Assembly: GCA_029242745.1 (NCBI GenBank)
Contig: JAQWTI010000004.1
Location: 1-64,000, forward strand
Direction: 5' to 3'
Length of the DNA: 64,000 nt
Source of the DNA: Acidimicrobiales bacterium
GTDB taxonomy: Bacteria > Actinomycetota > Acidimicrobiia > Acidimicrobiales > MedAcidi-G1
Shown: piece after piece, positions 44,115-64,000 of the stretch
Position numbering within the stretch: position 1 is the stretch's first letter
Layout of the letters: the number at the start of each line of letters is the position of its first letter
Made by a program: the position numbers and the translations under genes
Notes under the pieces: generated by a model
Told to the model about the DNA's origin: nothing
Database searches by the model: none
What the model saw: the letters and a program-made list of their open reading frames with translations, nothing else

Positions 44115-45116
44115 ATGCAGGCCATCGTTCTTGTCGGGGGACTGGGGACCCGACTTCGTCCGCTGACTGCTAATACGCCCAAGCAGATGTTGCCGGTGCT
44201 CGATCGTCCCATGATCGAACACGTAGTTGGCCATCTAGCAGACCACGGAGTTACCCGACTGGTGTTATCGGTTGGCTTTCGTCCTGAGGCCTTTCTTGAG
44301 GCTTACCCGGATGGCAAGTGTGCTGGAATGCCACTCCACTATGCGGTTGAACCCGAGCCACTGGATACTGCTGGTGCCATACGTTTTGCGGCAGATCATG
44401 CAGAGATTGACAACACCTTCCTTGTGTTGAATGGTGACATCCTGACAGATCTAGATATTTCGGCCTTGTCTAAAAGCCATCAGGCGTCAGGTGCGTTGGG
44501 AACGATTGCCTTGACTGAAGTTGACGATCCCTCACGGTATGGCGTGGTCTCGCTGGGTGTCGATAGCCGGGTGCTGGGTTTTGTTGAGAAACCTCACCGG
44601 GACGAGGCGCCATCACGATGGGTCAACGCTGGTACTTATGTCCTTGAACCGGATGTCCTGAAGCGCATAGCGGTTGATCGAAGAGTGTCCATCGAACGGG
44701 AGGTCTTTCCTGCAATGGCCGACGAGGGAAGTCTTTGGGCGCTGTGCTCAGATGCCTACTGGCTGGATGCTGGAACCCCGGAGACCTACCTACGGGCCCA
44801 GACAGACCTAATCGATGGTTCCCGTGGTCGGCTGGATCCGATAGCGGCAAATGCCGTTGTGGCCGGTGATGCGACGGTTGAACACTCCGTAATTATGGGA
44901 GGGGCTGTCATAGGGGCGAGAGCACAGGTGTGTGATGCTGTCCTCATGGAGGGTGCTGTGGTTGAGTCTGGTGCAGTGGTAACAAATTCAGTGGTTGGAC
45001 CAGGTTCGCGTGTGGGTAGTGGGGCGTCGGTTACTGCGTTGAGTTTGATTGGTGGCGGACAGCTTGTGGCAGCTGGTGCCGTAGTTGTCGGAGCACGCAT
45101 CCCTGACGAGGGCTGA
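44115..45116 (+). CDS. sugar-1-phosphate nucleotidyltransferase, ManC/GMPP-like
   Basis: A 333-residue nucleotidyltransferase with the signature IVLVGGLGTRLRPLT (4-18), PKQMLPVLDRPMI, FLVLNGDIL and FVEKP. Its C-terminus is a left-handed beta-helix of hexapeptide repeats (for example VIGARAQVCDAVLMEGAVV). This eukaryote-type two-domain form matches mycobacterial GDP-mannose pyrophosphorylase; glucose-1-phosphate thymidylyl- or uridylyltransferase are alternatives. With ManA, phosphomannomutase, Gmd and Rmd genes in the window, mannose-1-phosphate guanylyltransferase is the most coherent call. The galE start lies 3 nt after its stop. Confidence 0.84.
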   Translation: MQAIVLVGGLGTRLRPLTANTPKQMLPVLDRPMIEHVVGHLADHGVTRLVLSVGFRPEAFLEAYPDGKCAGMPLHYAVEPEPLDTAGAIRFAADHAEIDNTFLVLNGDILTDLDISALSKSHQASGALGTIALTEVDDPSRYGVVSLGVDSRVLGFVEKPHRDEAPSRWVNAGTYVLEPDVLKRIAVDRRVSIEREVFPAMADEGSLWALCSDAYWLDAGTPETYLRAQTDLIDGSRGRLDPIAANAVVAGDATVEHSVIMGGAVIGARAQVCDAVLMEGAVVESGAVVTNSVVGPGSRVGSGASVTALSLIGGGQLVAAGAVVVGARIPDEG

Positions 45117-45119
45117 TTG

Positions 45120-46133
45120 ATGACGGTGCTAGTCACCGGTGGTGCCGGATATATAGGCAGCCATACCGTCGTAGCTCTTCAGGACGCTGGGCAACAGGTA
45201 GTTATCTTCGATGACCTTTCGAATTCGTCAGAGCGGGCTGTGGATGCAGTCAGGGCACTGGTTGGTTCGGATGTAGCGTTCGTGAGGGGCGACGCAGCCG
45301 ACACGGACATGGTTTCACAGACAATTGTCGAGTACGGCGTTGACGCGATAGTGCACTTCGCCGCATTCAAGTCGGTATCGGAATCCATGGAACGTCCGAT
45401 GGACTATTTCGTAAACAATATGGGATCGCTGTTCGGAGTAGTTAAGGCGATGGGGCTCACTGGGACCCGGCGGCTGATTTTCTCATCTTCGTGCGCTGTC
45501 TATGGGGAGCCAAAGGACGTGCCAGTCACCGAGGCCTCGGCGACCACGGCGGCCAGTCCTTATGGGTGGACGAAGTTGCACGGTGAGCAGTTTTTGGAGC
45601 AGATGGCGCTGGCTGGTGAACTCGATGTCATGATCCTGCGCTACTTCAATCCGGTGGGGGCCCACCCTTCGGGGGCAATAGGGGAAGACCCGAGAGGGAT
45701 GTCCAGCAACCTCGTACCGTTGCTAATGCAGGTGGCCTTGGGGCATCATGATCGCCTTCGGGTGTTTGGCAGTGACTACAACACGCCAGATGGTTCACCG
45801 GTACGTGACTACCTCCACGTGCTGGATCTTGCTGAGGGCCACGTGGCTGCACTGGCTGCACTGAGTTCAGGCTCAGGATGCACAACATTGAATATCGGCA
45901 CAGGACGTGGGTATTCGGTGTTGCAGGTGGTGGCGGCTGCCGAACAGGTGCTCCAACGCCGCATTCCACTTGAGTTGGTGGATCGTCGACCCGGCGACGT
46001 GGCTTGCATCTGGGCTCAAACCGACCTCGCTGCAGATGTACTGGGCTGGACCGCCACAAGAGATCTCACCAAGATGCTGGAGGACCACTGGCGTTGGCAG
46101 AAGGCCCATCCTGATGGGTTCGGTGCCTTGTAG
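45120..46133 (+). CDS. galE: UDP-glucose 4-epimerase
   Basis: A 337-residue extended SDR. The NAD loop is TVLVTGGAGYIGSH, the catalytic Ser and Tyr-x3-Lys are in IFSSSCAVYG and SPYGWTKLHGE, and RYFNPVGAHPSG plus NIGTGRGYSVL are GalE-specific landmarks. It interconverts UDP-glucose and UDP-galactose (possibly also the N-acetyl forms). ATG 45120 is preferred to the TTG immediately upstream. It is convergent with cofE, 34 nt apart. Confidence 0.9.
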   Translation: MTVLVTGGAGYIGSHTVVALQDAGQQVVIFDDLSNSSERAVDAVRALVGSDVAFVRGDAADTDMVSQTIVEYGVDAIVHFAAFKSVSESMERPMDYFVNNMGSLFGVVKAMGLTGTRRLIFSSSCAVYGEPKDVPVTEASATTAASPYGWTKLHGEQFLEQMALAGELDVMILRYFNPVGAHPSGAIGEDPRGMSSNLVPLLMQVALGHHDRLRVFGSDYNTPDGSPVRDYLHVLDLAEGHVAALAALSSGSGCTTLNIGTGRGYSVLQVVAAAEQVLQRRIPLELVDRRPGDVACIWAQTDLAADVLGWTATRDLTKMLEDHWRWQKAHPDGFGAL

Positions 46134-46167
46134 ACGTATCCACGCTCTCTACATGATTGGCGAGGTC

Positions 46168-46863
46168 TTAGCGGAACAGGTCGTCACCAGGAGCACGGAC
46201 TACGTCGGCGACGACGTCACCGTCGCCAAACCAAGTTGGATCGATACCACGCACAACAGCCACTGGTACCCCGTCGGCCTTACCCATGACCAATTCGGCA
46301 GCCGACGCGATCTCGTCGACCACGGCTACCTCAGTTACCTGAAGTTCACGTCCGAGGGCATCGTTGGTACCTCGTAGGTCGACGATCGGGCGCAATCCGG
46401 CGCAGCCGATGGCCACGTCGGTCACCCCCCGGCGCCATGGGCGACCAAAGGTATCGCTAATCACCACGGCTACGTCAACGCCAAACCGGTGGGCAAGAGC
46501 ATCTCGAATCCCGCGTGCCGACCGATCGGAGTCCAATGGAAGCAAGGCTGCCTTACCAGACTCAACATTAGATAAATCGATGCCGGCATTGGCGCACACG
46601 AACCCCTGCGCGGTCTCAGAGATAATCAGGTCACCACGGCGCCGCAGCACCCGAACTGTTTCTTCTATGACTAGCGGCTTATGGCCGACTGCAGGGTCAA
46701 TTTCGACCAGACGGCCCTCAGCCTTGGAGACCACCTTCTGCGTGACTACCAGAACGTCCCCATCTAGCAACTCAGTTGTCTCATAAATAACAGCAGCCAG
46801 ATCGTCGCCTAGTTGAATCTCTCCGATGCCGATTACCGGCATGATTGTCAGTGGCTGGCTCAT
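46168..46863 (-). CDS. cofE: coenzyme F420-0:L-glutamate ligase
   Basis: A 231-residue CofE-type enzyme. It starts PLTIMPVIGIGEIQLGDDLA, then DVLVVTQKVVSKAEGRLVE, and has SDTFGRPWRRGVTDVAIG, which are landmarks of GTP-dependent glutamate ligation to F420-0. Mycobacterial FbiB carries an additional C-terminal nitroreductase-like domain that reduces dehydro-F420-0; this protein stops after the CofE domain, so that step needs another gene. It overlaps the cofD stop by 1 nt on the minus strand. ATG 46863 is preferred to the TTG just before it. Confidence 0.9.
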   Translation of the reverse strand: MSQPLTIMPVIGIGEIQLGDDLAAVIYETTELLDGDVLVVTQKVVSKAEGRLVEIDPAVGHKPLVIEETVRVLRRRGDLIISETAQGFVCANAGIDLSNVESGKAALLPLDSDRSARGIRDALAHRFGVDVAVVISDTFGRPWRRGVTDVAIGCAGLRPIVDLRGTNDALGRELQVTEVAVVDEIASAAELVMGKADGVPVAVVRGIDPTWFGDGDVVADVVRAPGDDLFR

Positions 46864-47831
46864 CAATACTGCGTCAGACGTAACCGCGGAGACAAAATGG
46901 TTTGACAGAGGTTGGTAGCCACGTTGAGATCAGTCATCACTGTTGGAGTAACCACGCATGTCATCCCCTCAGCCTCCACGCCACTAGCTAGGTCGGCATC
47001 CGCAATGTCTACTACGAGGGTGGCAGCGAAATCCCTGTACAGGCGGGCCACTCCGATTACTGAGGGTTCGTGGCCTAATTCCCTGAGCATCCGTTCGGCG
47101 GGCCCCTTCAGCGCTGCCCCGTTCACGATGGGTGACACGGCGACTACGTCAGCCCGTCGGTTGGCTAGCGCCGCGCCAATGCCTGGCACAGCGATGATGG
47201 GCCCTATGGAGACAATGGGGTTAGACGGAGCGATGACTACCGCCGTAGCCGAGTTGATGGCTTCCAAAACTCCGGGTCCCGGGCTTGCATCGGCGATTCC
47301 AGCGAACCGGACTGCAGAAATATCGACGTCATGGCCGAGTTTGACGAAGTAGTCCTGAAAGCCAATCTCGTCACCAACTGAGCTTTGTTCAACACCATTG
47401 TTGTTAGCAAGGGTCACCATGGTGGCCACACGATCCTCGGTCATGGGTAGGAGTCGGACTTGAACGCCCCACGCATGGGCAATCTCAGCAGTTATCTCGG
47501 TGAGGCCTACACCGTCGGCTAGGCGTCCCGTGCGGTGGAGGTGAGTACCAAGGTCTCGATCGCCAAGTCGAAACCAGGTGGGGCTGCCTAACCGCTCCAG
47601 AGTGTCCATGGCCTGCCAACTTTCGTCGACGAGACCCCACCCAGTATCTGGATTGATTGCTTCAGCCAGTGTGTAGGTCACGGTGTCCAGGTCAGGGGAA
47701 ACTGACAGCCCGTGGAGCATTACATCATCAGCCGTATTGACGATGGCTGTAACCTTCCGGGCTGGCACGGCGCGTACCATCCCGCGCAATAGGCGAGCAG
47801 CGCCTACTCCGCCAGCCAGAACGGTAGTCAT
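46863..47831 (-). CDS. cofD: 2-phospho-L-lactate (or phosphoenolpyruvate) transferase, F420 biosynthesis
   Basis: A 322-residue CofD/FbiA protein. It starts TTVLAGGVGAARLLRGM, has IVNTADDVMLHGL, WFRLGDRDLGTH and IAPSNPIVSIGPI, all family landmarks. It joins the 7,8-didemethyl-8-hydroxy-5-deazariboflavin (Fo) moiety with an activated three-carbon acid to form F420-0 or its dehydro form. The frame is open to 47885 inside the gmd gene, but ATG 47831 gives the family start and follows the gmd stop by 4 nt. It forms a cofD-cofE pair, here in one unit with GDP-sugar genes. Confidence 0.9.
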   Translation of the reverse strand: MTTVLAGGVGAARLLRGMVRAVPARKVTAIVNTADDVMLHGLSVSPDLDTVTYTLAEAINPDTGWGLVDESWQAMDTLERLGSPTWFRLGDRDLGTHLHRTGRLADGVGLTEITAEIAHAWGVQVRLLPMTEDRVATMVTLANNNGVEQSSVGDEIGFQDYFVKLGHDVDISAVRFAGIADASPGPGVLEAINSATAVVIAPSNPIVSIGPIIAVPGIGAALANRRADVVAVSPIVNGAALKGPAERMLRELGHEPSVIGVARLYRDFAATLVVDIADADLASGVEAEGMTCVVTPTVMTDLNVATNLCQTILSPRLRLTQY

Positions 47832-47835
47832 CGGT

Positions 47836-48840
47836 TCAGGAGAGATTCCGTAGCCGACCTTCGAGAAGGGCCACATCGGCGTCAACCATCATTTCTACGA
47901 GCTGAACAAAGTCAATAGTTGGACGCCAGCCAAGGCGGTCGGCCGCTTGCGAGCCATCGCCCACGAGTAGATCAACCTCAGCTGGCCGGTAGTACTTCTG
48001 ATCAACTACGACGTGCTTCTCCCAGTCCAGACCGACTCGGGCGAAGGCCGCCTGACAGAACTCTTGGACGCTGTGCGTCTGACCTGTACAGATAACAAAA
48101 TCTTCGGGTTCGTCCTGCTGGAGCATTCGCCACATGGCATCCACGTAGTCTCCGGCAAAGCCCCAATCGCGCTTAGCATCCAGATTCCCAAGGCGTAGCT
48201 CAGATGCCTGTCCAAGGGCGATCTGGGCCACCCCGTGGCTGATCTTGCGGGTGACGAATTCGAGACCTCTCCGAGGGCTCTCGTGGTTGAAGAGCATCCC
48301 GGAGCAAGCATGCAGCCCGTAACTCTCCCGGTAGTTCACTGTTATCCAATGACCGTAGACCTTGGCTACCCCATAAGGGCTTCTGGGGTGGAAGGGAGTT
48401 GATTCAGTTTGGGGAACCTCATGCACTTTGCCAAACATTTCGCTTGAACTGGCTTGGTAGAAGCGAATTGAGGGATCGACGAGTCGAACAGCATCCAGCA
48501 TGCGGGTCACGCCGAGCGCTGTTGTCTCACCTGTCAACACCGGCTGTCCGAATGACGTCTGGACAAATGACTGGGCAGCCAAGTTGTAGACCTCGTCCGG
48601 GGTGTGTTCCTGAAGAGCCTCCACAATCGAGAACTGATCTAACAGGTCTCCAGAATGAAACTCGATGCGTCCCATTAGATGGGCAATGCGTTCGTAGTTG
48701 ACGGTAGAACTCCGCCGGACCATTCCCACTACCTCGTAACCGCGGTCCAGTAAGAACTCAGCCAGGTAAGAACCGTCCTGTCCGGTGATGCCCGTAATGA
48801 GCGCACGCCGTGCAGGGGAACCGGTCGTGGAATCTGCCAT
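47836..48840 (-). CDS. gmd: GDP-mannose 4,6-dehydratase
   Basis: A 334-residue extended SDR with the NADP loop [43 protein letters not shown], a catalytic YGVAK, and [18 protein letters not shown], which are Gmd hallmarks. [20 protein letters not shown] is also diagnostic. It makes GDP-4-keto-6-deoxy-D-mannose from GDP-mannose. The reductase gene lies directly upstream in the same operon (4-nt gap). The substrate can be supplied by ManA, the fused phosphomannomutase and the ManC-like enzyme encoded in this window. Confidence 0.94.
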
Positions 48841-48844
48841 GCAC

Positions 48845-49765
48845 TTAGTCTGCCTGAGACAGCCCTCGAAGACGCCGCCGGGCGTCAGTAAGCACCTCGG
48901 CCAGCGTGGATTCGAGCACTAGCGATGGTTCCCAACCAGTGTCGCGGTGGATTGCAGAGGCATCACCGAGGAGCTCTGGAAGGTCCACCGGTCGAAAAAG
49001 GCTGGGGTCGTCTACCGGGGTAATCGGCCGGTCGGCAAGTGACAGGAGAGCCTGCAAGATAGACCGGATAGCGATGGCCTGGCCGGTGCAAACGTTGTAG
49101 GCGGCTCCGGATCGACCCTTTGTAGCAAGTAGTCGGTAGGCCCTGACAACGTCCCGGACATCTGTAAAGTCTCGCCGAGCGTCAAGGTTTCCTACTGAAA
49201 TGGTGCTTTCCTTCTTTGCCTCACAACGGGCGATTCGCAGAGCCAGCGCCGAACATACGCCAGCTTCTCCTTGTCCGGGTCCAAAGTGGTTGAACGACCT
49301 TGCCCTGACAACATCCTGACCGTAACCAAGGTGGGCCTGTTCCGCGATTAGGTCTGCCATAGCCTTACTCGCCGCATAAGGAGATGCCGGTCGGAAGGGC
49401 GCAGACTCATTAACGGGGAGTTCGTCCTCTAGGACGACGCCGTACACATCTGCGCTGGTGACGGTCACCACTCGGCTAGCGCCAGTCGAGCGAGCAGCGG
49501 AGAGAAGATGATGAGTTCCCTCGGCGTTTATCCGGAGGGTCTTGACTGGTTCTGCCCAAGAGTGAGCGACATCGGCTTGGCCGGCCAGGTGGAAGATCAC
49601 CTCGGGGCAGTGAAGTTCCAGCAGATCAGTTAATCCCTCTGGGTCGAGTATGTCGGGCCCGCCTGAAGACCGGTCCGTCGACACAACCTCGTCACCTTCG
49701 GCTGTCAGGTGGTCAACCAAGTGTTGGCCAACAAACCCGGCAGCCCCGGTAACGAGGGCCTTCAT
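48845..49765 (-). CDS. GDP-6-deoxy-mannose reductase-like extended SDR
   Basis: A 306-residue extended SDR with the cofactor loop [38 protein letters not shown], catalytic SPYAASKA and [10 protein letters not shown], the set typical of Rmd/GDP-4-keto-6-deoxy-D-mannose reductases. With Gmd it would make GDP-D-rhamnose (or GDP-6-deoxy-talose). GDP-fucose synthase is less likely because that enzyme has different landmarks. It heads a minus-strand unit of rmd-like, gmd, cofD and cofE genes and diverges from the giant GT2 gene. Confidence 0.85.
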
Positions 49766-49857: not shown

Positions 49858-52800
49858 GTGGATGCCACCTCGCTCTCAGATAGCCATAAGCTGACCCCTA
49901 GGGCTTCGTCGGCCCCTGTGCTGGCCATAGTCGTGGTCAAGGACGATGCGCCGGACCTCGAGGTGGTCCTCACCAGTTTGGTCGCGCAAGATCATCAGCG
50001 CACCGAAGTTTTGGTCATCGACATCCGCCGAGATGGAACCCCGACTGTTGAAAGCCTCTCGTTGGTGGACCGGGTGGCTATAGCTGCTCCTGCGTCACTC
50101 GTCGTTCAGGCGTCCGGAGTGAGCGGATTTGGTCAAACGGTCAATGCGGGACTAGAGGCCAGAGCAACAATTGAACCGGCATTGCCTGATCCGCGCTTCT
50201 TATTGTTTGTCTCCAGTCAGGTGGTTCTTGGTGACACAGCGGTACGACGCCTGGTGGAGCGGGCCGTCGAAACAAATGTTGCGGTGGTTGGGCCCAAGGT
50301 GGTTGGGCCGACGGGGGCCCTAGAGGAAACAGGATGGTGGTTTGATGCCCTTGGGTCTCCAGTCCCGGTGGTACCTGATCCTGAATTCGATCAGGGTCAG
50401 TACGACACGGACCTCTCGCCCGATGCGGTGTCCGGAGCAGCATGGATGATTCGCTACGACCTTTTTGTCGAATTAGATGGACTCGACCCCGATGGGGTGC
50501 CCGGCACAGAGCATTTGGATCTCTGTCGACGGGCCCGTGCTGCCGGGGCCTCCATAGGGGTTGTCCCCGCAGCGGTGGCCCGGAGGTTTGGTTCGTCAAC
50601 GTCGATTCGGTATGTTCCCGCTGCGGCATGGCCACGGTTCCGTCTTCGGCAGACGTTGGCTTCGCCGTATAGTCGGCTGCTCCGGTTGGTTCCCGTCTTG
50701 GTAGTAGCCACACTTGGTGGTGTCGCGTATGGGCTACTTGCTGGACGTTTCCGGCATGCCTTTGGGTTGCTGGCGGCCTGGCCGTGGAACCTTCGTCGAA
50801 TCAGGTCTGCACGGCAGTTGTTTGCGGGGAGTTCCGCGCTAATTGACCGTCCGGACTGCGGAATTACTGGACGCCGGGAATCACTGTGGGTGGCTTTTCG
50901 GCGGGTGGTTACTGGCCGTACTCTGGCTGGTGACGACGATCAATCTGATGGACTGCGACGCCTCAACGGCGTCTTTGGTGCAGTGTTCGGCCCAGGTGGC
51001 CTAGCGTTGTTGATCGCCGCCGGGGTGATCGGCTTCGGATCTCGTTCACTGGTATCCGGTGGGATAACCGCAGTTGGGCGTTTCCAGGGACTACCGGATG
51101 CTCCAAGTGACCTCTTGGCGGGCTGGTGGAACGGTTGGAGGTCCACCGGGACGGGTACCTCCAACTCGGGCACAGATGGGCTGGCCGTAGTGGGTTTTCT
51201 GGCTGGCATTTTACCGGGATCAACAGACTCACTTTGGACCGCCTTGGTGCTTGGAGCGTTCGCTGTAGGGGCGCTTGGAACTTGGCGTTTGGTCCAGCCC
51301 ATAGGTGGTGGCCGTTCACGTGCGGTCGCTGTGCTGGTCTACCTTGCGGCGCCTATTCCCTATGACGCACTGCGTTCGGGGCGACTCACCCCCTTGGCGG
51401 CATATGCTCTTCTGCCTTGGGTCGCTCGACGGCTTGCTGGCGCTCAAGCTATGACGCCCTATGGATTCCGCGGTGGCGAACCTGGCCCAGGAACCCGCCT
51501 TCGTAGCATCTGGTCCGATGTGCTTGTAACCGGCTTGGCAATTTCGGCAGTAATTGCAGTGGTTCCAGTTCTTTTGGTTCCCGTTTGCCTAGTTGCTGGG
51601 GGCCTCTTCATAGGAACGATCGTGTCGGGCGCAACCAACGGTCTGGTTCGGCTACTTATGGTGGCCAGTAGTGGAGCGGCAGTCAGTGCCCTAGTCCACC
51701 TGCCGACCATCTTGACGTTCTTGGGACGTGGGGGAAACGGGTGGGCTGGCTGGCTGAACGGGGGAGTAGATGCTGATTGGGGTCTTAACGGATCGATTGG
51801 ACTTTGGGGGGTCTTGGCACTTGATCCCGCTGCAGATCGGGCAACGTTGACTTGGGCGCTATTCGTTCTGCCGCTCCTCAGCCTGTTGTCAGCGCAGGGT
51901 CGACATCTCTCGGTGGTGGTTCGAGCTTGGTTCGTGACGGCGGCCGGGGCTTCAGGACTGGTAGCCATCGATCAAGGGTGGATCGGTGGCGAGGGCTCGG
52001 TGCTGCGGTCGGTAGACCCAGCAGTATTTCTGGTGCCAGTGGCACTCGGCCTGGCATGGGCATCGGCCGCAGGCGTGGCTGGCATTGGTGCCGATCTCGC
52101 ACACTTGGCTCGACAGGTGCACGTAGAGCGCTACGCCCGGGCAGTTCGCAATGGCCTACTGGGCCTCGTGGTGGTAAGTCTGACTATTGGTGTGCTTCCA
52201 GTACTGACTGGCTCGTTTGCTGGAAGTTGGGGAGCACCACGTGCTGACCTGGTATCCGCACTTCCTAGTTTAAATACTCGTCTAGGTGCTGGGGACACGG
52301 TGCGCGGTGGGGATGCTCGGGTCCTGTGGATCGGCGAGCAGGTGGTTCTCCCTGCTGCAGGGATCCCGCTCTCGACTCGGCAGAGTTCAGTTGGAGAAGG
52401 TCCAAACATGCTGGGAGACCTAGTTATGGCAGTCACTGATGGGCGTCCGGATCTCGCCGACCAGTGGTCACCGGGGGAGACGGCTGGGATGGTGCTCTTG
52501 CGCGATGCGCTAAATTCTGCACTGGACGGAGCTACTCACCGACTGGGTGTTGAGTTGGGGCGTTGGGGGGTGGCGCAGGTGGTGGTCGTCCAGCGCTCAG
52601 CGCCGGTACCCGGTCCAGGTATTGATCGACCCGTACCTGATCGCTTGACGGAGATTTTGGCCCGTCAACTCGATTTGGAACGAGTGGAAGCAGTGAACCG
52701 GGCGATGACTGTCTATCGAAACACTGCGGTGGAGGCACCGTTTTCGGTAGTTCGGGACAGAAATCGACGGGTCGTCCCTGCGTTAGTGACGCGTCGTTCG

Positions 52801-53148
52801 TTCAGTGATTGGGTTGTTGAGATTCCCGCTGATGGCGCTCTCCGGTCAATGGTTGGGCCTGACGACCGCTGGCAGGTCCGAGTGGATGGTCAGCCGGTCA
52901 TGGTGTTGGCCCCAGGTGAAGCTCATGGAGTAATTGGGCGTCCAGCAGTTCGTGTGGCGACGGGAAGTGTGGCTACGTTCGAAGTTGATAGTGGACGAAT
53001 GGTGGGACGGCGCGGAACCCAGTTGGCGCTGGCCGGCCTACTGATCCTGCTCACTAGCTGGGCACGAACATCTCGTGAAGCCTCTATATCCCAGGAGTCT
53101 TCAGGTTCCGATCTCCGAGATAGCAAGACGCGGCGGCGGCTTAAATGA
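49858..53148 (+). CDS. GT2 glycosyltransferase fused to a large polytopic membrane protein
   Basis: A 1096-residue protein. Residues about 20-270 are a GT-A/GT2-like domain (LAIVVVKDDAPDLEVVLTSL, EVLVIDIRRDG, FLLFVSSQVVLGD, GAAWMIRYDLFVELDGLD). Beyond about residue 275 come many hydrophobic segments (for example VLVVATLGGVAYGLLAG, LALLIAAGVIGFG, VSLTIGVLPVLTG), then a mostly polar region of about 230 residues (probably outside) and one last helix (LALAGLLILLTSW). The DxD motif of the GT2 part is not obvious. Such fusions occur in actinobacteria beside DUF5719 proteins, as here (4-nt overlap). A role in moving or polymerising a cell-wall glycan is inferred. Confidence 0.8.
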   Translation: MDATSLSDSHKLTPRASSAPVLAIVVVKDDAPDLEVVLTSLVAQDHQRTEVLVIDIRRDGTPTVESLSLVDRVAIAAPASLVVQASGVSGFGQTVNAGLEARATIEPALPDPRFLLFVSSQVVLGDTAVRRLVERAVETNVAVVGPKVVGPTGALEETGWWFDALGSPVPVVPDPEFDQGQYDTDLSPDAVSGAAWMIRYDLFVELDGLDPDGVPGTEHLDLCRRARAAGASIGVVPAAVARRFGSSTSIRYVPAAAWPRFRLRQTLASPYSRLLRLVPVLVVATLGGVAYGLLAGRFRHAFGLLAAWPWNLRRIRSARQLFAGSSALIDRPDCGITGRRESLWVAFRRVVTGRTLAGDDDQSDGLRRLNGVFGAVFGPGGLALLIAAGVIGFGSRSLVSGGITAVGRFQGLPDAPSDLLAGWWNGWRSTGTGTSNSGTDGLAVVGFLAGILPGSTDSLWTALVLGAFAVGALGTWRLVQPIGGGRSRAVAVLVYLAAPIPYDALRSGRLTPLAAYALLPWVARRLAGAQAMTPYGFRGGEPGPGTRLRSIWSDVLVTGLAISAVIAVVPVLLVPVCLVAGGLFIGTIVSGATNGLVRLLMVASSGAAVSALVHLPTILTFLGRGGNGWAGWLNGGVDADWGLNGSIGLWGVLALDPAADRATLTWALFVLPLLSLLSAQGRHLSVVVRAWFVTAAGASGLVAIDQGWIGGEGSVLRSVDPAVFLVPVALGLAWASAAGVAGIGADLAHLARQVHVERYARAVRNGLLGLVVVSLTIGVLPVLTGSFAGSWGAPRADLVSALPSLNTRLGAGDTVRGGDARVLWIGEQVVLPAAGIPLSTRQSSVGEGPNMLGDLVMAVTDGRPDLADQWSPGETAGMVLLRDALNSALDGATHRLGVELGRWGVAQVVVVQRSAPVPGPGIDRPVPDRLTEILARQLDLERVEAVNRAMTVYRNTAVEAPFSVVRDRNRRVVPALVTRRSFSDWVVEIPADGALRSMVGPDDRWQVRVDGQPVMVLAPGEAHGVIGRPAVRVATGSVATFEVDSGRMVGRRGTQLALAGLLILLTSWARTSREASISQESSGSDLRDSKTRRRLK

Positions 53149-54590
53149 CGGCGGTTCGTGGTCCAGCCATAATCTCTCTGACTGTTCTATTAATTGCAGC
53201 ATTTGCACTGTCATCGGGCCCGACTGATGAGTTTGGTGCCGAAACTCGACCCGAAGCGCGTGCGGCGACCGTGCTGGATGGCGACGCCACTGGCCTTTGG
53301 TTCTGTCTCGGACCGACAGCCGAACTGGATGGGATCAGCGAGCGGACTGTTGAAGTTGTGGGAATTTCAACGTCCCCGACCAAGGGTCGAGTTACGGTGG
53401 CGGACGACAGCGGACGAGTCGTTGAGCGAGCCTTCCAAATTGACCCGGGCGACCGCCTCGAGATATCTCCAGGGCAGTTTGTGTCTGGTGCGCTATTTGC
53501 TGGCGTCACCATTGAAGTCAGTGGTGGTGCTGTCGTGGTGGCTCAGACGTTTTCTGGTCCTACTGGTATAGATCGTCGGCCGTGTACTACGCGCGCCGCT
53601 GACAGCTGGGTGGTCCCTTGGCTAACCACTGCTCGACCGGGGAACCAAGCATGGTTACTCATACACAATCCGTTCCGGGCTGCGGCAGTGGTCGATCTTC
53701 GATTCGTTGGTGATATAGGCCGCCGTGAAGCCCTGGATTCCCAAGGAGTTGTGGTACCCGGTCGGGCGATAGTTGCATATGACGTGACTGAACGGATCGC
53801 TGATTCCGCAGTGGTGTCGGCCACGATCAATGCACGAGCGGGACGAGTTGTGGTTGCCCGACTCCAGATTTCAGATGGTTCTGGCCCGTTGGCTATTAGT
53901 GGTCTTGATCTGGCGCCGGGGGTTCCTGAACTAGCAACCCGAGCCTTCGTCCCTGGGGTGGGGGTGGGCGAGAGGTCGGCCAGTGGATCAACGGTGGTAG
54001 TTGTCAACGCGAATATGGAGACCGTAGAGGCCGAAGTGCTAGTCCGGACCGCAGTGGATGTGGCCAAGGTAGAACCATGGCGGTTGGAACTGCGGGCTGG
54101 TCAGCGTTATGTGGTGGATCTGGATGATGGTCGCCTCGCTGGGATCGGTGCATTTGGAGTCGAGATTCGGTCGTTCGATGATCAACCGGTTGCTGCATCG
54201 GTGGTCCGGCGAGCAGTCGACGGACTTCAGGGCTTAGCGGTCCGGGCGGCGGCGGTTGTGGCGGCTCGTGGTTGGGTCGTGGACATAGCCGATCGCTACG
54301 GCGCAATGGAAGATGTCATGGCTGTCATGAATCCAGCGATTGAAGGGATCGCCACTATTGAGGTAAAGGTCCTCGCTGGCACGGCTCCAGACGGTATGGC
54401 TCGAATCGTGGAGTTAGCGCCCGGAACACAGGCGTCGTTTGATTTACAGGCGGGGCCACCTTTGGTGTTAGCCGTTGAGGCCACTGCGCCGGTAATCGTC
54501 TCGGTTCAGAGCATTGGGGAGAGTGGAGCCACGGCCTCTGTTGCTGTTGCTGTGGCGGGTACCGAGCAGCGAATTATTCCTAATCGTTAG
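53145..54590 (+). CDS. DUF5719-type secreted protein
   Basis: A 481-residue protein with an N-terminal signal/anchor helix (IISLTVLLIAAFALSSG, about 9-25). The rest is beta-rich with repeated short immunoglobulin-like strands and short matching motifs such as ADSWVVPWLTTARPGNQAW, LLIHNPF and VAVMNPAIEG. These fit the actinobacterial DUF5719 family (recalled, not searched). Two cysteines (FCLG, PCTT) may form a disulfide outside. It overlaps the giant GT2 gene by 4 nt and likely works with it at the cell surface. No catalytic motif is visible, so an assembly or scaffold role is more likely than an enzyme. It is convergent with the thioredoxin-like gene, 3 nt apart. Confidence 0.75.
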   Translation: MTAVRGPAIISLTVLLIAAFALSSGPTDEFGAETRPEARAATVLDGDATGLWFCLGPTAELDGISERTVEVVGISTSPTKGRVTVADDSGRVVERAFQIDPGDRLEISPGQFVSGALFAGVTIEVSGGAVVVAQTFSGPTGIDRRPCTTRAADSWVVPWLTTARPGNQAWLLIHNPFRAAAVVDLRFVGDIGRREALDSQGVVVPGRAIVAYDVTERIADSAVVSATINARAGRVVVARLQISDGSGPLAISGLDLAPGVPELATRAFVPGVGVGERSASGSTVVVVNANMETVEAEVLVRTAVDVAKVEPWRLELRAGQRYVVDLDDGRLAGIGAFGVEIRSFDDQPVAASVVRRAVDGLQGLAVRAAAVVAARGWVVDIADRYGAMEDVMAVMNPAIEGIATIEVKVLAGTAPDGMARIVELAPGTQASFDLQAGPPLVLAVEATAPVIVSVQSIGESGATASVAVAVAGTEQRIIPNR

Positions 54591-57041: not shown

Positions 57042-57776
57042 ATGGAACGCCCGATGAATCCTGAGGTGGTGGGAACTTCACGCCCGCCGGCTGCATGGGG
57101 TTTTGGCCATGTGGGTGCCGGATTGGTAGTTGGCATGCTGGCCACTGTCGTGGTTATGGGCATTGCGGCGGCCGTGCTGGGTGCTGATGCTGCCGAAGAT
57201 CCGAGTCTGGCGGTTGGTGCACTAGTCCAGGGGGCTCTGTATTTAGGGCTGGTTGGGGTGCCTGTGTGGCTGGTGATGTTTCGGGGGGTGCGCTGGTCTG
57301 ACTTTGGTTGGCTGGGATCTGGTCCAAGACGGCGAGTGCTTGATGCTTGTCAGGGGTTGGCTATTGGGGTTTTTGCTCAACTAGTGGCGGTCCCCGCTCT
57401 TTATGCCCCAATTCTGCTATTTACCGATGAGTTAGACGTTTCGGGGCCTGCTCGTGAACTGGTTGACCAGGCTAATGGGCTCGGAATCGCTCTTCTGGTC
57501 CTCATGGTCGTAGTGATGGCACCCATCACCGAAGAACTGTTTTTTCGGGGTTTGGCGTTGAGAGCCATGGAGGCCCGCATGCCGCGTCGGCTAGCGTTAG
57601 CCGCTTCGGCCTTATTGTTTGGCCTTACCCACTTCCAACTTCTGCAACTCCCTGCATTGGTCATGATCGGTTTGGTGTGTGGATGGCTAGCCCAGCGGGA
57701 TAAGCGACTGGGCCGGGCGGTTTGGACCCACGTTGGCTTCAATGCCACGACAACTTTCATCCTTTTGCTCGGATGA
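57042..57776 (+). CDS. CPBP family intramembrane metalloprotease
   Basis: A 244-residue polytopic membrane protein with the three CPBP (Abi/Rce1-like) motifs: PITEELFFRGLAL with the EExxxR pattern, FGLTHFQ, and HVGFNATTT near the C-terminus. About seven hydrophobic segments are visible. Such proteins cleave prenylated or small membrane peptides; the target here is unknown. The frame is open to 56910 across the ftsH start, but ATG 57042 removes that overlap and sits 7 nt after TAGGGT. It overlaps the next gene by 4 nt (ATGA). Confidence 0.87.
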   Translation: MERPMNPEVVGTSRPPAAWGFGHVGAGLVVGMLATVVVMGIAAAVLGADAAEDPSLAVGALVQGALYLGLVGVPVWLVMFRGVRWSDFGWLGSGPRRRVLDACQGLAIGVFAQLVAVPALYAPILLFTDELDVSGPARELVDQANGLGIALLVLMVVVMAPITEELFFRGLALRAMEARMPRRLALAASALLFGLTHFQLLQLPALVMIGLVCGWLAQRDKRLGRAVWTHVGFNATTTFILLLG

Positions 57777-60373
57777 CTGACACGACCACCGGCTCCGGTG
57801 AACCAGTTGGGCTTTCAGAAGAGTTCGATGACACTGCCAGTCCGGTAGCTGCAGCGATCCGGCAGAGGCCTCTGACCTGGTGGGTCAACCTACTTATCGT
57901 CCTTGGGGGCATGTGGTTTGTGCTTTGGGTGGTGAATCCCGACGGAGTGCTCTTTACCCGATCAACGCCTACCGGTGGTGACCTTGGTGCTCACGTGTGG
58001 GGACCAGCATTTCTCCGTGATGAACTACTGCCCCGGTTTCGCCTGAGTGGCTGGACACCCGACTGGTATGCCGGATTCCCTGCCTACCACTTCTACATGG
58101 TTGTACCGATGTTGCTGGTGGTGGCGGTTAATGTTGGGCTGAAAACACCAGTACTTGCTGCGGTTCTACCTGTCCTCATTGCAGTCGGAGTAGCAGTAGT
58201 CCGGCGGCGCCGATCTGGATGGATGCTGCGGCTGGTCGCTCTGGCTGCTTTAGTCGTCCTTGTGGTTCCGGTGCATTACGGCATGGCTATCAAGTGGGTC
58301 ACTGTTGCGGGTCTCGTGGTGATGCCATTGGCCGGATGGGCCACTGGGCGCCTAGCGGGTTTGCCGTTTCCGGGTCCGGCGCTGATGTCGGTAGCCACTC
58401 TTCCCTTTCTGTTTGATCGGTCGTTCAACATCATGGGTGGCAACCTGATGTCAACCATGGCTGGCGAGTTCGCTTACGCCCTTGCCGTTGCCGCCTGCCT
58501 TGTATACATAGGCCTGTTAGTTCGCGGCTTAGAGACCGGATTTGGACGGGCCCCAGCGGCAGTCCTACTGGCTCTCACCGGTCTTTGCCATCTACTGGTT
58601 GCTTTCTTTGCCCTAGTGGCTTCAGCTGTAGCCCTAGTGCTGAGGCCGAGCCGGCAGGCGCTGGCCTGGCTGATGACCACTGGCCTAGTGGCTGGCCTCT
58701 GTGCAGCGTTTTGGGTTCTACCGTTCTGGTGGCAGCGGGACCACCTAAACGACATGGCCTGGCACAAACTCACACGATTCCGCTCGTATCTCTGGGACCG
58801 CGGCGACCTCGCTGCTGATTTCCTTACAAATGATCCGCCACTCCAGCCAGCCATCGTGCTTGCGATCCTCGGCCTCGCACTTTCGGTTTTCTTTCGTCGG
58901 CGCCTTGGTTTTGTACTGGCTGGTTCAGCCATCATCCTTGGGCTGGCCTTTGTGCATCTGCCTGAGGGTCGTCTCTACAACGGACGCATCCTGCCCGCCT
59001 ACTACCTCTGCATCTATCTACTGGCAGCTATTGCTCTGTCGGAGGGGCTGCGACTCGCTGGCCGCTTAGTTGATGGTTTGCGCCGGTCGTCTACTGGTCG
59101 GCAAGGCCGACTGGTCGCTGGGGGAGGGGCGTTAGTCGTGTTCTTATTCGTAGTGGTCATGTTGGCCATCCCACTAAGGATCTTGCCTGGAGGTTCAACT
59201 AAAGGAAACGCCTATCACTGGATGGGTGTCGAGTCGACTGAATTGAACCTTGGTCGTTCTTGGGTGCGGTGGAACTTTGAGGGCTACGAGGCCAGAGATG
59301 GTGGCCCTTCGGGAGGTGGTTGGGAGGAGCAGCGTGCATTGACCTCAACTATGGAAGATCTGGCCGCCAGCACAGGCTGCGGCCGGCTGATGTGGGAGTA
59401 CAACAGCGATCTAGTGCGGTACGGCACTCCTATGGCCTTGATGCTGTTGCCCCACTGGACGGACGGTTGCATTGGGTCGATGGAAGGCCTCTACTTTGAG
59501 GCATCGACAACCACGCCGTATCATTTCCTGGTCCAATCAGAACTCTCCGTGGCACCCTCGCGTGCCCAGCGAGGCCTTCCATACCGGGGATTTGACTTGG
59601 ATGCCGGCGTCGACCACCTCCAACAACTTGGTATCCGGTGGTACTCGGCCTTCTCGGAGCGTGCTGTAGACGAAGCGCGTCAGCATCTGGGCCTAATCGA
59701 AAAGGCAACTAGCGGGCCTTGGACCATCTTTGAGGTATTGGGTGCCGAACCCGTCGTGGCCCTCGAAGTGGAACCTTCCGTGTTCACCGATGTTGACCAC
59801 GGCAGCTGGCTGGAACCGTCAATTGAGATTTTTCAGACTGGGTCAACTGGAGCGGTGCGAACCATTGGTGGTCCAGCATCTTGGCAGCGGGTACCAGCCG
59901 GAGCGGAAGTGGAGCGTCGGCCGCTGCCCACCGTTGAGGTCAGTGACGTAGTGAGTGGTGTTGACTCGGTGTCCTTTCGAGTCGACCGTCTGGGTGTCCC
60001 GGTGTTGGTGCGGACTTCATTCTTCCCGAACTGGAAGGTAGACGGCGCTGACGGGCCATGGCGCGCAACACCAAATTTGATGGTCGTAGTGCCGAATTCT
60101 GAAGAGGTTCGCCTTTCCTACGGGCGAACACCGGTCGACGTCATATCCATGGTCCTGACTTTCGTTGGCTTGCTGGCACTGGTTGCACTCGCCCGGCGTT
60201 CGGTAGGACCTGGAGGTCCTGGTGTGGCCCTATTTGATTTAGCGGCTGCCGGCCCAGATGGTGAACGACGGCTCAACCGTTGGGTAGGCCGTCGGGTGGC
60301 TAACTCGAGTAGGGACACCGAGTTGGGGGTCTTTGTGGTCTCAGACGACCAAATAATGGGTGACCAGTCGTGA
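57773..60373 (+). CDS. large polytopic membrane protein, GT-C/PTPS-related-like
   Basis: An 866-residue protein with about 11-13 hydrophobic segments in the first 480 residues and a long polar C-terminal part that ends in one more helix (about residues 793-813, VISMVLTFVGLLALVAL) and a short tail. After the first helix it has GGDLGAHVWGPAFL and TPDWYAGFPAYHFY, a loop with a conserved acidic residue as in GT-C glycosyltransferases and the PTPS-related membrane family (recalled). The C-terminal half has TTTPYHFLVQSEL and WYSAFSERAVDE, seen in YfhO-like proteins. It would use a polyprenyl-phosphate sugar, which the adjacent GT2 fusion could make. The ATG at 57773 overlaps the previous stop. Function is inferred. 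Confidence 0.77.
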   Translation: MTDTTTGSGEPVGLSEEFDDTASPVAAAIRQRPLTWWVNLLIVLGGMWFVLWVVNPDGVLFTRSTPTGGDLGAHVWGPAFLRDELLPRFRLSGWTPDWYAGFPAYHFYMVVPMLLVVAVNVGLKTPVLAAVLPVLIAVGVAVVRRRRSGWMLRLVALAALVVLVVPVHYGMAIKWVTVAGLVVMPLAGWATGRLAGLPFPGPALMSVATLPFLFDRSFNIMGGNLMSTMAGEFAYALAVAACLVYIGLLVRGLETGFGRAPAAVLLALTGLCHLLVAFFALVASAVALVLRPSRQALAWLMTTGLVAGLCAAFWVLPFWWQRDHLNDMAWHKLTRFRSYLWDRGDLAADFLTNDPPLQPAIVLAILGLALSVFFRRRLGFVLAGSAIILGLAFVHLPEGRLYNGRILPAYYLCIYLLAAIALSEGLRLAGRLVDGLRRSSTGRQGRLVAGGGALVVFLFVVVMLAIPLRILPGGSTKGNAYHWMGVESTELNLGRSWVRWNFEGYEARDGGPSGGGWEEQRALTSTMEDLAASTGCGRLMWEYNSDLVRYGTPMALMLLPHWTDGCIGSMEGLYFEASTTTPYHFLVQSELSVAPSRAQRGLPYRGFDLDAGVDHLQQLGIRWYSAFSERAVDEARQHLGLIEKATSGPWTIFEVLGAEPVVALEVEPSVFTDVDHGSWLEPSIEIFQTGSTGAVRTIGGPASWQRVPAGAEVERRPLPTVEVSDVVSGVDSVSFRVDRLGVPVLVRTSFFPNWKVDGADGPWRATPNLMVVVPNSEEVRLSYGRTPVDVISMVLTFVGLLALVALARRSVGPGGPGVALFDLAAAGPDGERRLNRWVGRRVANSSRDTELGVFVVSDDQIMGDQS

Positions 60374-62970
60374 GAGGTCGTCTCCGCCAGTTCGCTGCCG
60401 TGGGTGCGGTTGCAACGGTAATTGACGTTGGAGTGGCTGTCGCCCTGCTGGGGGCCGGCTGGGCAGTTTGGGCAGCCGACGTTGTCGCTCTTGGGCTGGC
60501 CGCAGTAGTCGCCCGAGTGCTCCATCGGTTGGTAACACTGCGCGACGACCCGTACACCCGGTGGATCCGCCTCCGGCGGGTTTTTGTGACAGTGGTGGTT
60601 TTGGCTGGATTAGTTGATCTAGGCGTGCTTGCCGTTGCCCGGGCAGTTCTTGGTGGTGTGAATGCCGGTGATGCTGGAGGTTGGGAAAGCGATCTCTTAG
60701 TCAAGGTTGTCGCTGTGCTGGTGGCTGGCCTAGTGCGGGCCGTGGCGTACCGCTCGTTCCTCTTCCGAGTTATACGCCGAGAACAGGACCATCCGTCAGA
60801 TCGTGGTACGCCACCCGGCGATTTCCGGGTGAGCGTTGTCATTCCTGCGTATCAGGAGTCTGACCGGATCGCCACATCAATAGTCCGGGTGCGGACCGAA
60901 CTAGGTGCCGCCTTAGCTGAAATGACCGACACGGCTGAAACTGGATCCAACGATGGGGTCGAGATAGTGGTGGTCGATGACGGCTCGGCGGACGACACCG
61001 CAGCAGTGGCCGGAGCTGCTGGCGCCGACCGGGTAGTCCGGCTGGATAGGAATAGAGGTAAGGGATCAGCGGTAAGAGCTGGAGTGGCCGTGGCAACGGG
61101 TCGTACGGTGGTGTTCACCGACGCCGACTTGGCTTACGGGCCGGCACAGGCCGCAAAGCTCGTGGTCCAGATAGAGCAGGGATATGACGTAGTGGTCGGT
61201 AGCCGGCGTCATACCGAGACCAAGACGCTGGTTCGAGCGGGTCGTCTGCGGGAGGTTGGTGGCCGCCTAATTAACTTGGTTACCCACGCTTTTCTGCTTG
61301 GGCAGTACCGAGATACTCAGTGTGGACTGAAGGCATTCCGAGCCGATATAGCGCGACCAATGTTTGCTGCCTCAGTGCTGGAAAGGTTCGCTTTCGACGT
61401 TGAGATCTTTCATTTGGTTGAGCGGTGGCGACTAAGTCTGATTGAGGTGCCAGTCGAGGTGGAGAACTCTGAGCGATCCACGGTTCGAGTCGTTCGTGAC
61501 GGCGTTCGGCTTATGGTCGACCTGGTTCGCGTCCGGCAACGAGCGCGCCGAGGGGACTACCCAGCACTACCGGTTTTCCCAGTCTGCGACAGCGCAATTT
61601 CTGGTGACCTTGTGGGACAGATTTTCAAGGCGTATGACATTCGTGGGCGAGTGCCTGACGAATGGAACAATGAAGTTGCAGAGTCGATAGGACGAAGTTT
61701 TGGCCATCTGGTGAGACGTCGGGAGCCCAACGTCGGTCGTGTGGTGGTGGGCCGGGACATGCGTCCGAGCGGTGTGCCGCTTGGAGAAGCTTTGATTCGG
61801 GGGGTTACCTCGGTTGGTCTCGACGTAGTCGACGTGGGCCTGGCGTCTACTGATCTGGTCTCGTTTGCCTCGGGCTACCTTCAGGCGCCAGCGATGATGG
61901 TGACAGCGAGCCACAATCCTCCGGAATACAACGGTATTAAGTGCTGCTTATCGGGTGCTAGTCCGCTGGGTTACGAAAATGGTCTAAACGAGGTGAAGGC
62001 GGCGGTTCTTGCCAGCGCGCCGGTTCTTGCAGCAGATAATCGACTTGGGAACGTCATATCGAGAGACCTTCTGGGGCTTTTTTCGGCGCACGTGAGGTCG
62101 TTCGTTGATACTGATCAGCTCCGGCCATTGCGGTTAGTGGTGGACACGGCCAATGGCATGGGCGGACTAGTGGTTCCCGCAGTTTTCAAGGAGTTGCCGT
62201 TCGTCGTTGACTACCTCTACCCCGAACTCGACGGAACTTTTCCGAACCATCCGGCTGACCCGATCCAGCCGGAGAACCTCCGGGACTTGCAGGCCCGGGT
62301 CCAGGCTGTCGGGGCTGACCTAGGTTTGGCCTTCGACGGGGATGCTGATCGAGTATTTCTGGTTGATGAGCAATCTTGCCTAGTGTCTGGCTCGACGACG
62401 ACTGCACTGGTAGCGCGCGAAATCTTGCGAAATGAACCTGGTGCAATTATCTTGCACAATCTGATTTGCTCGAAGGCCGTTCCCGAGGTTGTGGCCGAGG
62501 AGGGTGGGCGTGCCATCCGTACTCGGGTGGGTCATTCTCTCATTAAGCAGGCTATGGCCGTCGAAAAAGCTGCTTTTGCTGGTGAGCATTCTGGGCACTA
62601 CTACTTCCGAGACAACTTTCGGGCAGACAGCGGACTGATTGCTGCACTAATCATTCTCAAGGCTTTGTCAGTTCACAACGGACCCATGAGCGAATTAACT
62701 GCCCCGTTGGAGCGTTATGCGGCATCCGGCGAACGAAACACCAAGGTTCAAGATCCCAAAGTCGTTATAGAACGGGTTGCCGCCCATTACTGCGGCCAGG
62801 CACCCGAGGCCGTTCAGGATCAACTCGACGGGTTGACTGTGGATTTTGGGGACTGGTGGTTCAACCTCCGACCGTCAAATACTGAGCCGCTGTTGCGACT
62901 CAATGTTGAGGCCATGGACTATGAGGCATGCGCAACACGAGTTGAGGAAGTGCAGTCGTTGTTCCTGTAA
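60370..62970 (+). CDS. GtrA-like / GT2 / phosphomannomutase triple fusion
   Basis: An uninterrupted 866-residue frame with three modules. Residues 1-140 are four hydrophobic helices resembling GtrA-type proteins (RQFAAVGAVATVIDVGVAV). About 153-390 is a DPM1/ALG5-like GT2 domain (VSVVIPAYQESDRI, VVVDDGSADDT, VFTDADLAYGP, QCGLKAFRAD). About 420-866 is an alpha-D-phosphohexomutase (KAYDIRG, TASHNPPEYNG with the phosphoserine, DGDADR metal loop, GEHSGHYYF, RPSNTEPLLRL). It would join mannose-6-P to mannose-1-P conversion with polyprenyl-phosphate-sugar synthesis in one membrane protein. Separate translation of the mutase from an internal GTG near its start cannot be excluded. It begins with GTG overlapping the previous stop. 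Confidence 0.9.
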   Translation: MRGRLRQFAAVGAVATVIDVGVAVALLGAGWAVWAADVVALGLAAVVARVLHRLVTLRDDPYTRWIRLRRVFVTVVVLAGLVDLGVLAVARAVLGGVNAGDAGGWESDLLVKVVAVLVAGLVRAVAYRSFLFRVIRREQDHPSDRGTPPGDFRVSVVIPAYQESDRIATSIVRVRTELGAALAEMTDTAETGSNDGVEIVVVDDGSADDTAAVAGAAGADRVVRLDRNRGKGSAVRAGVAVATGRTVVFTDADLAYGPAQAAKLVVQIEQGYDVVVGSRRHTETKTLVRAGRLREVGGRLINLVTHAFLLGQYRDTQCGLKAFRADIARPMFAASVLERFAFDVEIFHLVERWRLSLIEVPVEVENSERSTVRVVRDGVRLMVDLVRVRQRARRGDYPALPVFPVCDSAISGDLVGQIFKAYDIRGRVPDEWNNEVAESIGRSFGHLVRRREPNVGRVVVGRDMRPSGVPLGEALIRGVTSVGLDVVDVGLASTDLVSFASGYLQAPAMMVTASHNPPEYNGIKCCLSGASPLGYENGLNEVKAAVLASAPVLAADNRLGNVISRDLLGLFSAHVRSFVDTDQLRPLRLVVDTANGMGGLVVPAVFKELPFVVDYLYPELDGTFPNHPADPIQPENLRDLQARVQAVGADLGLAFDGDADRVFLVDEQSCLVSGSTTTALVAREILRNEPGAIILHNLICSKAVPEVVAEEGGRAIRTRVGHSLIKQAMAVEKAAFAGEHSGHYYFRDNFRADSGLIAALIILKALSVHNGPMSELTAPLERYAASGERNTKVQDPKVVIERVAAHYCGQAPEAVQDQLDGLTVDFGDWWFNLRPSNTEPLLRLNVEAMDYEACATRVEEVQSLFL

Positions 62971-63293: not shown

Positions 63294-64000
63294 ATGGACC
63301 TGCTTGAAGGTGTGATCCGTTCCTATGACTGGGGATCAACCACGGCGCTAGCTGAATTGCGGGGTATTGAGCCCTCTGGGAAGCCAGAAGCTGAGCTCTG
63401 GTTTGGTGCCCATAAGGCAAATCCTTCGGTATTTCGTACTAGTCGAAGTAGCGCAACGCTTGACGAGATGCCTTTTCTGGTAAAGGTGCTTGCTGTTGAT
63501 CGACCGCTCTCGCTCCAAGCCCATCCGGATGCTTCTGCTGCCACTTTGCGGTATCAACGTGAGGAGAAGGCTGGTCTAGTTGTCGATGATCCTCGCCGTT
63601 GCCATCCCGACGGGCGTGCCAAGCCTGAGATGGTTTGTGCTATCGGTCGCTTTGAGACCTTGTGTGGCTTTCGACCCTTTGATGAGGCACTGTTGGTTGC
63701 CAAATCACTTGGGCTTCCTCAATTGATTGTTGATGCACTCCACGCTGCTGATTGGCCAGCAGTGGTGGCCGCAGTTCTTGCTAGTTCGCCGAGCGACTTG
63801 GCTGCTTTCGAGTTGGCAGTTGCGGAGGTTCCGGATTTCAGTGCTGACCGGTCGACAGCCGATCTGGTGTGCTTCTTGGCTGAGATGTATCCGAGGGACC
63901 CGTCACTGTTGCTGGTTCCTCTATTGCGCCATGTGAGTTTGGAAGATGGCGATGCACTATTTGTGGCGCCCGGCGTTTTACATATTCACCTTTCTGGCCT
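63294..64000 (+). CDS. manA: mannose-6-phosphate isomerase, class I (cut by window end)
   Basis: The first 235 codons of a type I phosphomannose isomerase, open to the window edge. The start reads MDLLEGVIRSYDWGS, followed by PEAELWFGAHKANPS. Zinc-site residues are in LSLQAHPDAS and HPDGRAKPEMV, and LFVAPGVLHIHLSG comes near the edge. It interconverts fructose-6-P and mannose-6-P, feeding the phosphomannomutase module encoded just upstream. About 150-170 residues should lie beyond the window. ATG 63294 is the first in-frame start giving the family N-terminus. Confidence 0.9.
   Translation, partial: MDLLEGVIRSYDWGSTTALAELRGIEPSGKPEAELWFGAHKANPSVFRTSRSSATLDEMPFLVKVLAVDRPLSLQAHPDASAATLRYQREEKAGLVVDDPRRCHPDGRAKPEMVCAIGRFETLCGFRPFDEALLVAKSLGLPQLIVDALHAADWPAVVAAVLASSPSDLAAFELAVAEVPDFSADRSTADLVCFLAEMYPRDPSLLLVPLLRHVSLEDGDALFVAPGVLHIHLSG

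Follow-up and report, generated by a model that had tools for sequence, protein, structure and literature searches.

A GtrA-glycosyltransferase-phosphomannomutase fusion in one genus of uncultured marine Acidimicrobiales, probably formed twice from adjacent genes

Can a phosphomannomutase be made as one chain with a membrane-bound synthase of lipid-linked sugars and, if so, where does such a chain come from and what would it do? The question is raised by one gene near the end of the window, the whole stretch of 64,000 nucleotides of Acidimicrobiales DNA analysed here, which a preliminary description had read as three complete modules in a single frame. As shown in Table 1, the gene carries a GtrA-like membrane domain, a family 2 glycosyltransferase (GT2) and a mutase; it starts with GTG and encodes 866 aa, uninterrupted up to the stop at 62970. 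The Pfam search placed all domains over their cut-offs: GtrA_DPMS_TM with E 3e-7 (30.9 bits against a cut-off of 26.1), Glycos_transf_2 at residues 155-326 with E 6e-24, the fold match extending to about residue 394, and PGM_PMM I to IV, in this order, at residues 417-861 (E 1e-32, 2e-21, 5e-24 and 3e-9). The structure model and hydrophobicity predict four transmembrane helices in the GtrA part (2-28, 33-56, 69-94 and 105-139). The GT2 part has its DDGS motif at 203 and the metal-binding DADL at 251, and the mutase has TASHNP at 512 (catalytic Ser loop), DGDADR at 656 (Mg loop), GEHSGH at 738 (sugar loop) and RPSNTEP at 834 (phosphate loop). All six motifs are kept in 12 of 12 complete fused proteins and, together with the Pfam domains, they confirm that the three modules are complete. 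In the AlphaFold model the GtrA, GT2 and mutase folds are confident (mean pLDDT 87.5), and the placement of the domains relative to one another is without confidence (pTM 0.59). The gene is a true new architecture built of known families.

Table 1. Position of the fused gene, its parts and the associated genes in the window
Feature	Coordinates	Strand	Basis or remark
Mannose-1-phosphate guanylyltransferase (GDP-mannose pyrophosphorylase, Rv3264c-like)	44115..45116	+	NF052502, PF00483
GDP-mannose 4,6-dehydratase (gmd), competing GDP-mannose user	47836..48840	-	TIGR01472, 449 bits over cut-off 415
883-aa polytopic membrane protein	57722..60373	+	ORF; place conserved beside GtrA-GT2 in relatives examined
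Fused gene GtrA - GT2 - phosphomannomutase/phosphoglucomutase (ManB)	60370..62970	+	single open frame, Pfam and NCBIfam domains
GtrA_DPMS_TM membrane domain, residues 7-122	60388..60735	+	PF04138, hydrophobic stretches, model helices
GT2 polyprenyl-phosphate-hexose synthase domain, residues 155-394	60832..61551	+	PF00535, fold match
Linker, about 20 residues (398-417)	61561..61620	+	low pLDDT at about 401-410, weak constraint
Phosphomannomutase/phosphoglucomutase (ManB type), domains I-IV	61618..62967	+	PF02878/PF02879/PF02880/PF00408, NF007088, 5bmp fold
Mannose-6-phosphate isomerase ManA	63294..63998 (runs off window end)	+	PF20511, TIGR00218; same place in relatives

The mutase part resembles phosphomannomutase/phosphoglucomutase (PMM/PGM) structures, with a fold match to 5bmp at a TMt of 0.92. 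NF007088 was the best of all NCBIfam models for it, at 568.5 bits, below the equivalog cut-off of 618, and for this reason we call it ManB-type and do not assign it to the equivalog. The assembly, which is 94.7% complete, contains two PGM_PMM genes, the fused gene and a GlmM-like one, and no second ManB-type PMM was found in it. Since the only other PGM_PMM gene is GlmM-like, the mutase part probably represents the sole PMM/PGM (ManB) of the cell, as judged from the gene content. The same GlmM-like nature led us to set aside the idea that a second PMM permits the mutase part to decay.

Is the junction real, and is the gene made as one chain? Of 17 genomes from this genus of uncultured marine Acidimicrobiales, 13 have the in-frame junction, in independent assemblies, and the single-frame fusion of the preliminary description is thus borne out. 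A whole-protein search returned full-length in-frame matches in 11 other congeneric genomes (69-78% identity), giving 12 complete fused genes from separate public assemblies (for example JAAZXY010000005.1, PAXM01000005.1 and DEAU01000010.1); in the 13th genome, G016, the frame is continuous through the junction, and a stretch of N takes the place of the sequence further upstream. G005 is a probable 14th: its contig breaks within the linker, and both contig ends share 7 nt and the same frame. The three others, G001, G008 and G013, have two genes, the GT2 part stopping at a TAG and the mutase ATG lying 10 nt past that stop in a different frame. The pattern that had been named as refuting the fusion, a gene pair divided by a stop around residue 410, does occur, in these three congeners and in all outer relatives examined; it marks the fusion's source, while the fusion itself stands. 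A misassembly or sequencing error joining two genes is favoured by the metagenome-like assembly and by the existence of congeners with separate genes, yet its probability is next to nil, with 13 in-frame genomes from independent projects whose linkers vary in length (14-36 aa), always by multiples of 3 nt. For the genus those 13 genomes rule the artefact out, the window's own junction being judged through its relatives and not through reads. A different reading accepts the fused DNA frame and supposes that internal initiation yields most of the mutase as a free protein, which would leave the fusion of little functional meaning. It can point to the in-frame GTG at codon -3 from the mutase core in the window gene, preceded at 4 nt by GGTGA (close relatives are without this GTG), and to an NTG at codon -8 in four fused genes of the group called clade A below (GTG/GTG/GTG/TTG), one of which has a Shine-Dalgarno-like stretch with a -10 kcal/mol anti-SD match. 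We nevertheless regard it as improbable. In 17 of 17 relatives with separate genes that were tested (3 congeners and 14 others), the mutase has an ATG at codon -6 from its IFKAYD core, and this ancestral start is gone in 12/12 fused genes. Moreover, G002 and G012 have no in-frame ATG, GTG or TTG within 45 codons before the core, so that the mutase there would hardly be made except within the fusion, and in five clade B species (G003, G006, G011, G014 and G015) the nearest candidate start is no closer than codon -12. We infer from these start codons that the window species translates the gene as a single chain, although its GTG at -3 could yield some free mutase.

Both catalytic parts evolve under purifying selection, with dN about 0.01-0.16 against dS 0.15-1.9 in close pairs (in one example, 0.03 against 0.3), whereas the linker, with dN 0.13-0.76, is almost unconstrained. 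In G012 (locus L009) a DPSP-type repeat, PSGPSLGPDPSPDPSPDPSLDQSPDPGPDRLA, makes up the linker, which suggests that linker length changes via repeat expansion.

The genus also allowed the fusion events to be counted. In a tree of rpoB and rpoC it divides into clade A, with 3 unfused and 4 fused species, and clade B, in which all species are fused and to which the window species and the probable fusion G005 belong. Forcing the fused species into one clade was rejected on this tree (AU p=1.5e-5) and, in weaker agreement, on the locus's own tree (AU p=0.016). The junction of the unfused clade A species closely resembles that of the sister genus g4 (GGGTAGCGTTCCGGCGATG vs GGGTAGCGTCTCCGCCGATG) and is absent from every fused species. 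A single origin of the fusion is therefore rejected by the AU tests, provided that the unfused clade retained the sister-genus junction and did not regain it; reversion of a single fusion to the old junction is unlikely. Because the fused species are not monophyletic and the unfused ones keep the sister-genus junction, these sequences make two independent fusions within the genus the most likely history.

The two genes stand side by side well beyond the genus. Outside it, the GT2 gene lies directly upstream of the mutase in 55 of the 68 loci examined and is separate in every one, in keeping with the statement of the preliminary description that such mutases are normally separate proteins. Measured to the mutase core, the gaps outside the genus are 10-180 nt; relatives of the same family have an 8-nt gene overlap (ATGnnTGA) in several genera, or a spacing of 10-11 nt. 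In many GC-rich genomes of relatives no stop interrupts the mutase frame ahead of the mutase's own start, so that one frameshift at the 3' end of the GT2 gene would fuse the two genes. No fusion was found outside the genus among 397 genomes of the order (E<=1e-190), and no record in the plasmid collection covers 80% of the fused-protein query. Among the best matches listed from 396 genomes sampled across the phylum, none outside the genus runs through both parts free of internal stops, though rarer distant cases may lie beyond these rows. In E. coli and Haloferax, gene pairs -8 to +10 nt apart show a 4.5- to 8-fold enrichment for heteromeric complex subunits (PMC10666635). The spacing of GT2 and mutase genes in the relatives falls in this range, and by this analogy it is plausible that the two proteins were already associated before any fusion.

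The surroundings of the gene are those of mannose metabolism. Within the family the order FtsH, CPBP, 883-aa protein, GtrA-GT2, PMM and ManA is conserved. The gene for the 883-aa protein shares 4 nt (GTGA) with the fused gene, and its product has a GGDLGAHVW motif near the N-terminus. Searches of Pfam, NCBIfam and the PDB sequences matched this protein to nothing at working thresholds, a single match lying below threshold, and its relatives gave no family match either. From its position and from inspection only, we suspect that it is a putative GT-C-like acceptor glycosyltransferase, possibly of an unrecognised family. The GDP-mannose pyrophosphorylase has NF052502 as its best NCBIfam match (279 bits, under the curated cut-off of 440). 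It is the first gene of a mannose/F420 block at 44115-49765, followed by GalE-like, cofE, cofD, gmd and RMD-like reductase genes, in an order that may resemble the Rv3255c-Rv3265c region of Mycobacterium. Between this block and the 883-aa protein gene, positions 49858-53148 of the plus strand encode a 1096-aa protein whose N-terminal part is a GT2 domain and which has a long membrane region; a DUF5719 protein follows at 53145-54590. Mutants of S. coelicolor in manB or ppm1 and those depleted of GMP have common phenotypes, which place these steps in one pathway (PMC5982138).

With these elements we consider it likely that the gene makes one polypeptide in which a membrane GtrA-GT2 carrier-sugar synthase holds ManB on a tether, that it came from adjacent genes, probably twice, and that what it changes is dosage or placement. 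Both enzymes in the chain would belong to one supply line for envelope glycans. The GtrA-GT2 portion at the N-terminus would sit in the membrane and load a hexose, most likely mannose, onto polyprenyl phosphate, and it may help to flip the lipid-linked hexose outward for use by the neighbouring membrane protein. The C-terminal mutase would face the cytoplasm on a short flexible tether. A frameshift in the adjacent, usually overlapping gene pair would have abolished the stop of the GT2 gene, and the mutase would have lost its start codon later. Transport of polyprenyl-phosphate sugars has been proposed for GtcA/GtrA proteins (PMC7389260), and by analogy the GtrA domain may be a putative flippase or a membrane anchor. 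A second, stand-alone GtrA protein is encoded elsewhere in the same genome (L001, G000:C31:20497-20853, in a 213-aa open frame).

Which sugar is loaded, and why the fusion was kept, allow more than one answer. The GT2 part has a DxD motif and attached N-terminal membrane helices, as in the DPM1/GtrB group, and its fold matches are dolichyl-phosphate-mannose synthase (5mlz, Z 22.8), GtrB (9nyd, 21.6) and ArnC (9bhe, 21.2), Z-scores too close for the sugar to be called from the fold; its best sequence matches are ArnC and AglJ. The earlier wording 'DPM1-like', with the mannose that it implies, is likely rather than proven, the glucose enzyme GtrB and ArnC matching about equally well. If the GT2 loaded glucose or another hexose, the mutase would be tethered for glucose-1-phosphate and not for mannose-1-phosphate, a reading in line with the near tie with GtrB (UDP-Glc) and ArnC, with the sequence matches, and with the S. 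coelicolor ManB SCO3028, a dual PMM/PGM showing that actinobacterial ManB can also yield glucose-1-P (PMC5982138). We hold it to be unlikely, since the neighbours are mannose-specific, with ManA adjoining and GDP-mannose pyrophosphorylase and gmd in the window, and the top Z belongs to dolichyl-phosphate-mannose synthase, though by just about 1 over GtrB. These context genes favour mannose, and mannose from GDP-mannose is the most likely GT2 sugar on the gene evidence. For that route the preliminary description had proposed that the fusion would link the supply of mannose-1-P to the membrane on which lipid-linked sugars are made. A direct tie to the synthase is not supported: mannose-1-P is no substrate of GT2 synthases and is first converted to GDP-mannose. 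The fused activities are thus non-consecutive; the pyrophosphorylase stands between them, encoded outside the fusion by a separate gene 15 kb away, and direct hand-over would be impossible without recruiting that enzyme.

The likely effect would therefore be a fixed 1:1 dosage and a membrane placement of the mutase, not direct substrate hand-over. Tethering may bring a benefit; for now, fixed dosage, membrane placement and neutral retention from a coupled gene pair account for the fusion equally well. The neutral outcome, in which a frameshift removed the GT2 stop, the mutase works with an N-terminal extension and loss of its start blocks reversal, is a real possibility, if not the one we would back; it concerns why the fusion persisted and is compatible with the tethered synthase-mutase chain as an account of what the protein is. 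It fits the relatives, one indel away from a fusion and often with the mutase frame open upstream, the almost unconstrained linker and the joining of non-consecutive steps. Less expected under it is that fusion apparently occurred twice in one genus and nowhere else in the 397 order genomes, though adjacent pairs are common in the order, nor among the matches listed from the phylum sample, and that every descendant seen retained it, on a gene that seems to have no second copy. At the other extreme, the fused protein might scaffold a membrane GDP-mannose metabolon, in which the separate pyrophosphorylase and ManA bind the tethered mutase and mannose flux is channelled into the lipid carrier at the expense of the competing GDP-rhamnose branch, this advantage having driven both fusions; we rate this as quite improbable.

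Whichever force kept it, the tethered synthase-mutase chain offers a natural experiment, since close relatives have the same gene pair apart, overlapping or fused and two fusions probably arose independently, and this series shows a route from coupled genes to one enzyme. If tethering alters flux, this would be a bacterium that puts a central sugar-phosphate enzyme at the membrane for the synthesis of lipid-linked glycans. It is a prediction of this scheme that ManB physically associates with the GtrA-GT2 synthase in relatives whose genes merely adjoin.

All component families are known, and the GtrA-GT2-mutase architecture was found in one genus only. The preliminary description knew of no characterised enzyme of this kind, and we found none in the open-access PMC literature, where our searches turned up no description of a GtrA, glycosyltransferase and phosphomannomutase fusion, nor of a phosphomannomutase fused to a polyprenyl mannose synthase. 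With the dolichyl-phosphate-mannose synthase of Pyrococcus (5mlz), GtrB and ArnC the protein shares the GT2 fold, the DDGS and DAD motifs and the membrane attachment, and the Pyrococcus enzyme also has a GtrA-type membrane module. Here, however, GtrA precedes the GT2 instead of following it, the mutase comes after, and the sugar is putative. The three-component Gtr systems (GtrA flippase, GtrB synthase and GT-C transferase) are alike in having GtrA and GT2, with an adjoining gene for a large membrane protein; in our case GtrA and GT2 form one chain, with the mutase added, and the large membrane protein is without a recognised GT-C family match. The actinobacterial ManB (SCO3028, NF007088) corresponds in sequence to the whole mutase part, with the four domains and the active-site loops, and likewise has manA as its neighbour and a gene for GDP-mannose pyrophosphorylase nearby, but it is separate and soluble, whereas here the mutase is C-terminal to a membrane GT2 and scores under the equivalog cut-off. 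Other fusions of a carrier-sugar synthase to another enzyme have different partner domains. Mycobacterial Ppm1, which joins Lnt and GT2, is one. Another is ORF15 of the GT136 pentofuranose system (PMC11127046), which joins consecutive steps, while the GtrA-GT2-mutase fusion does not.
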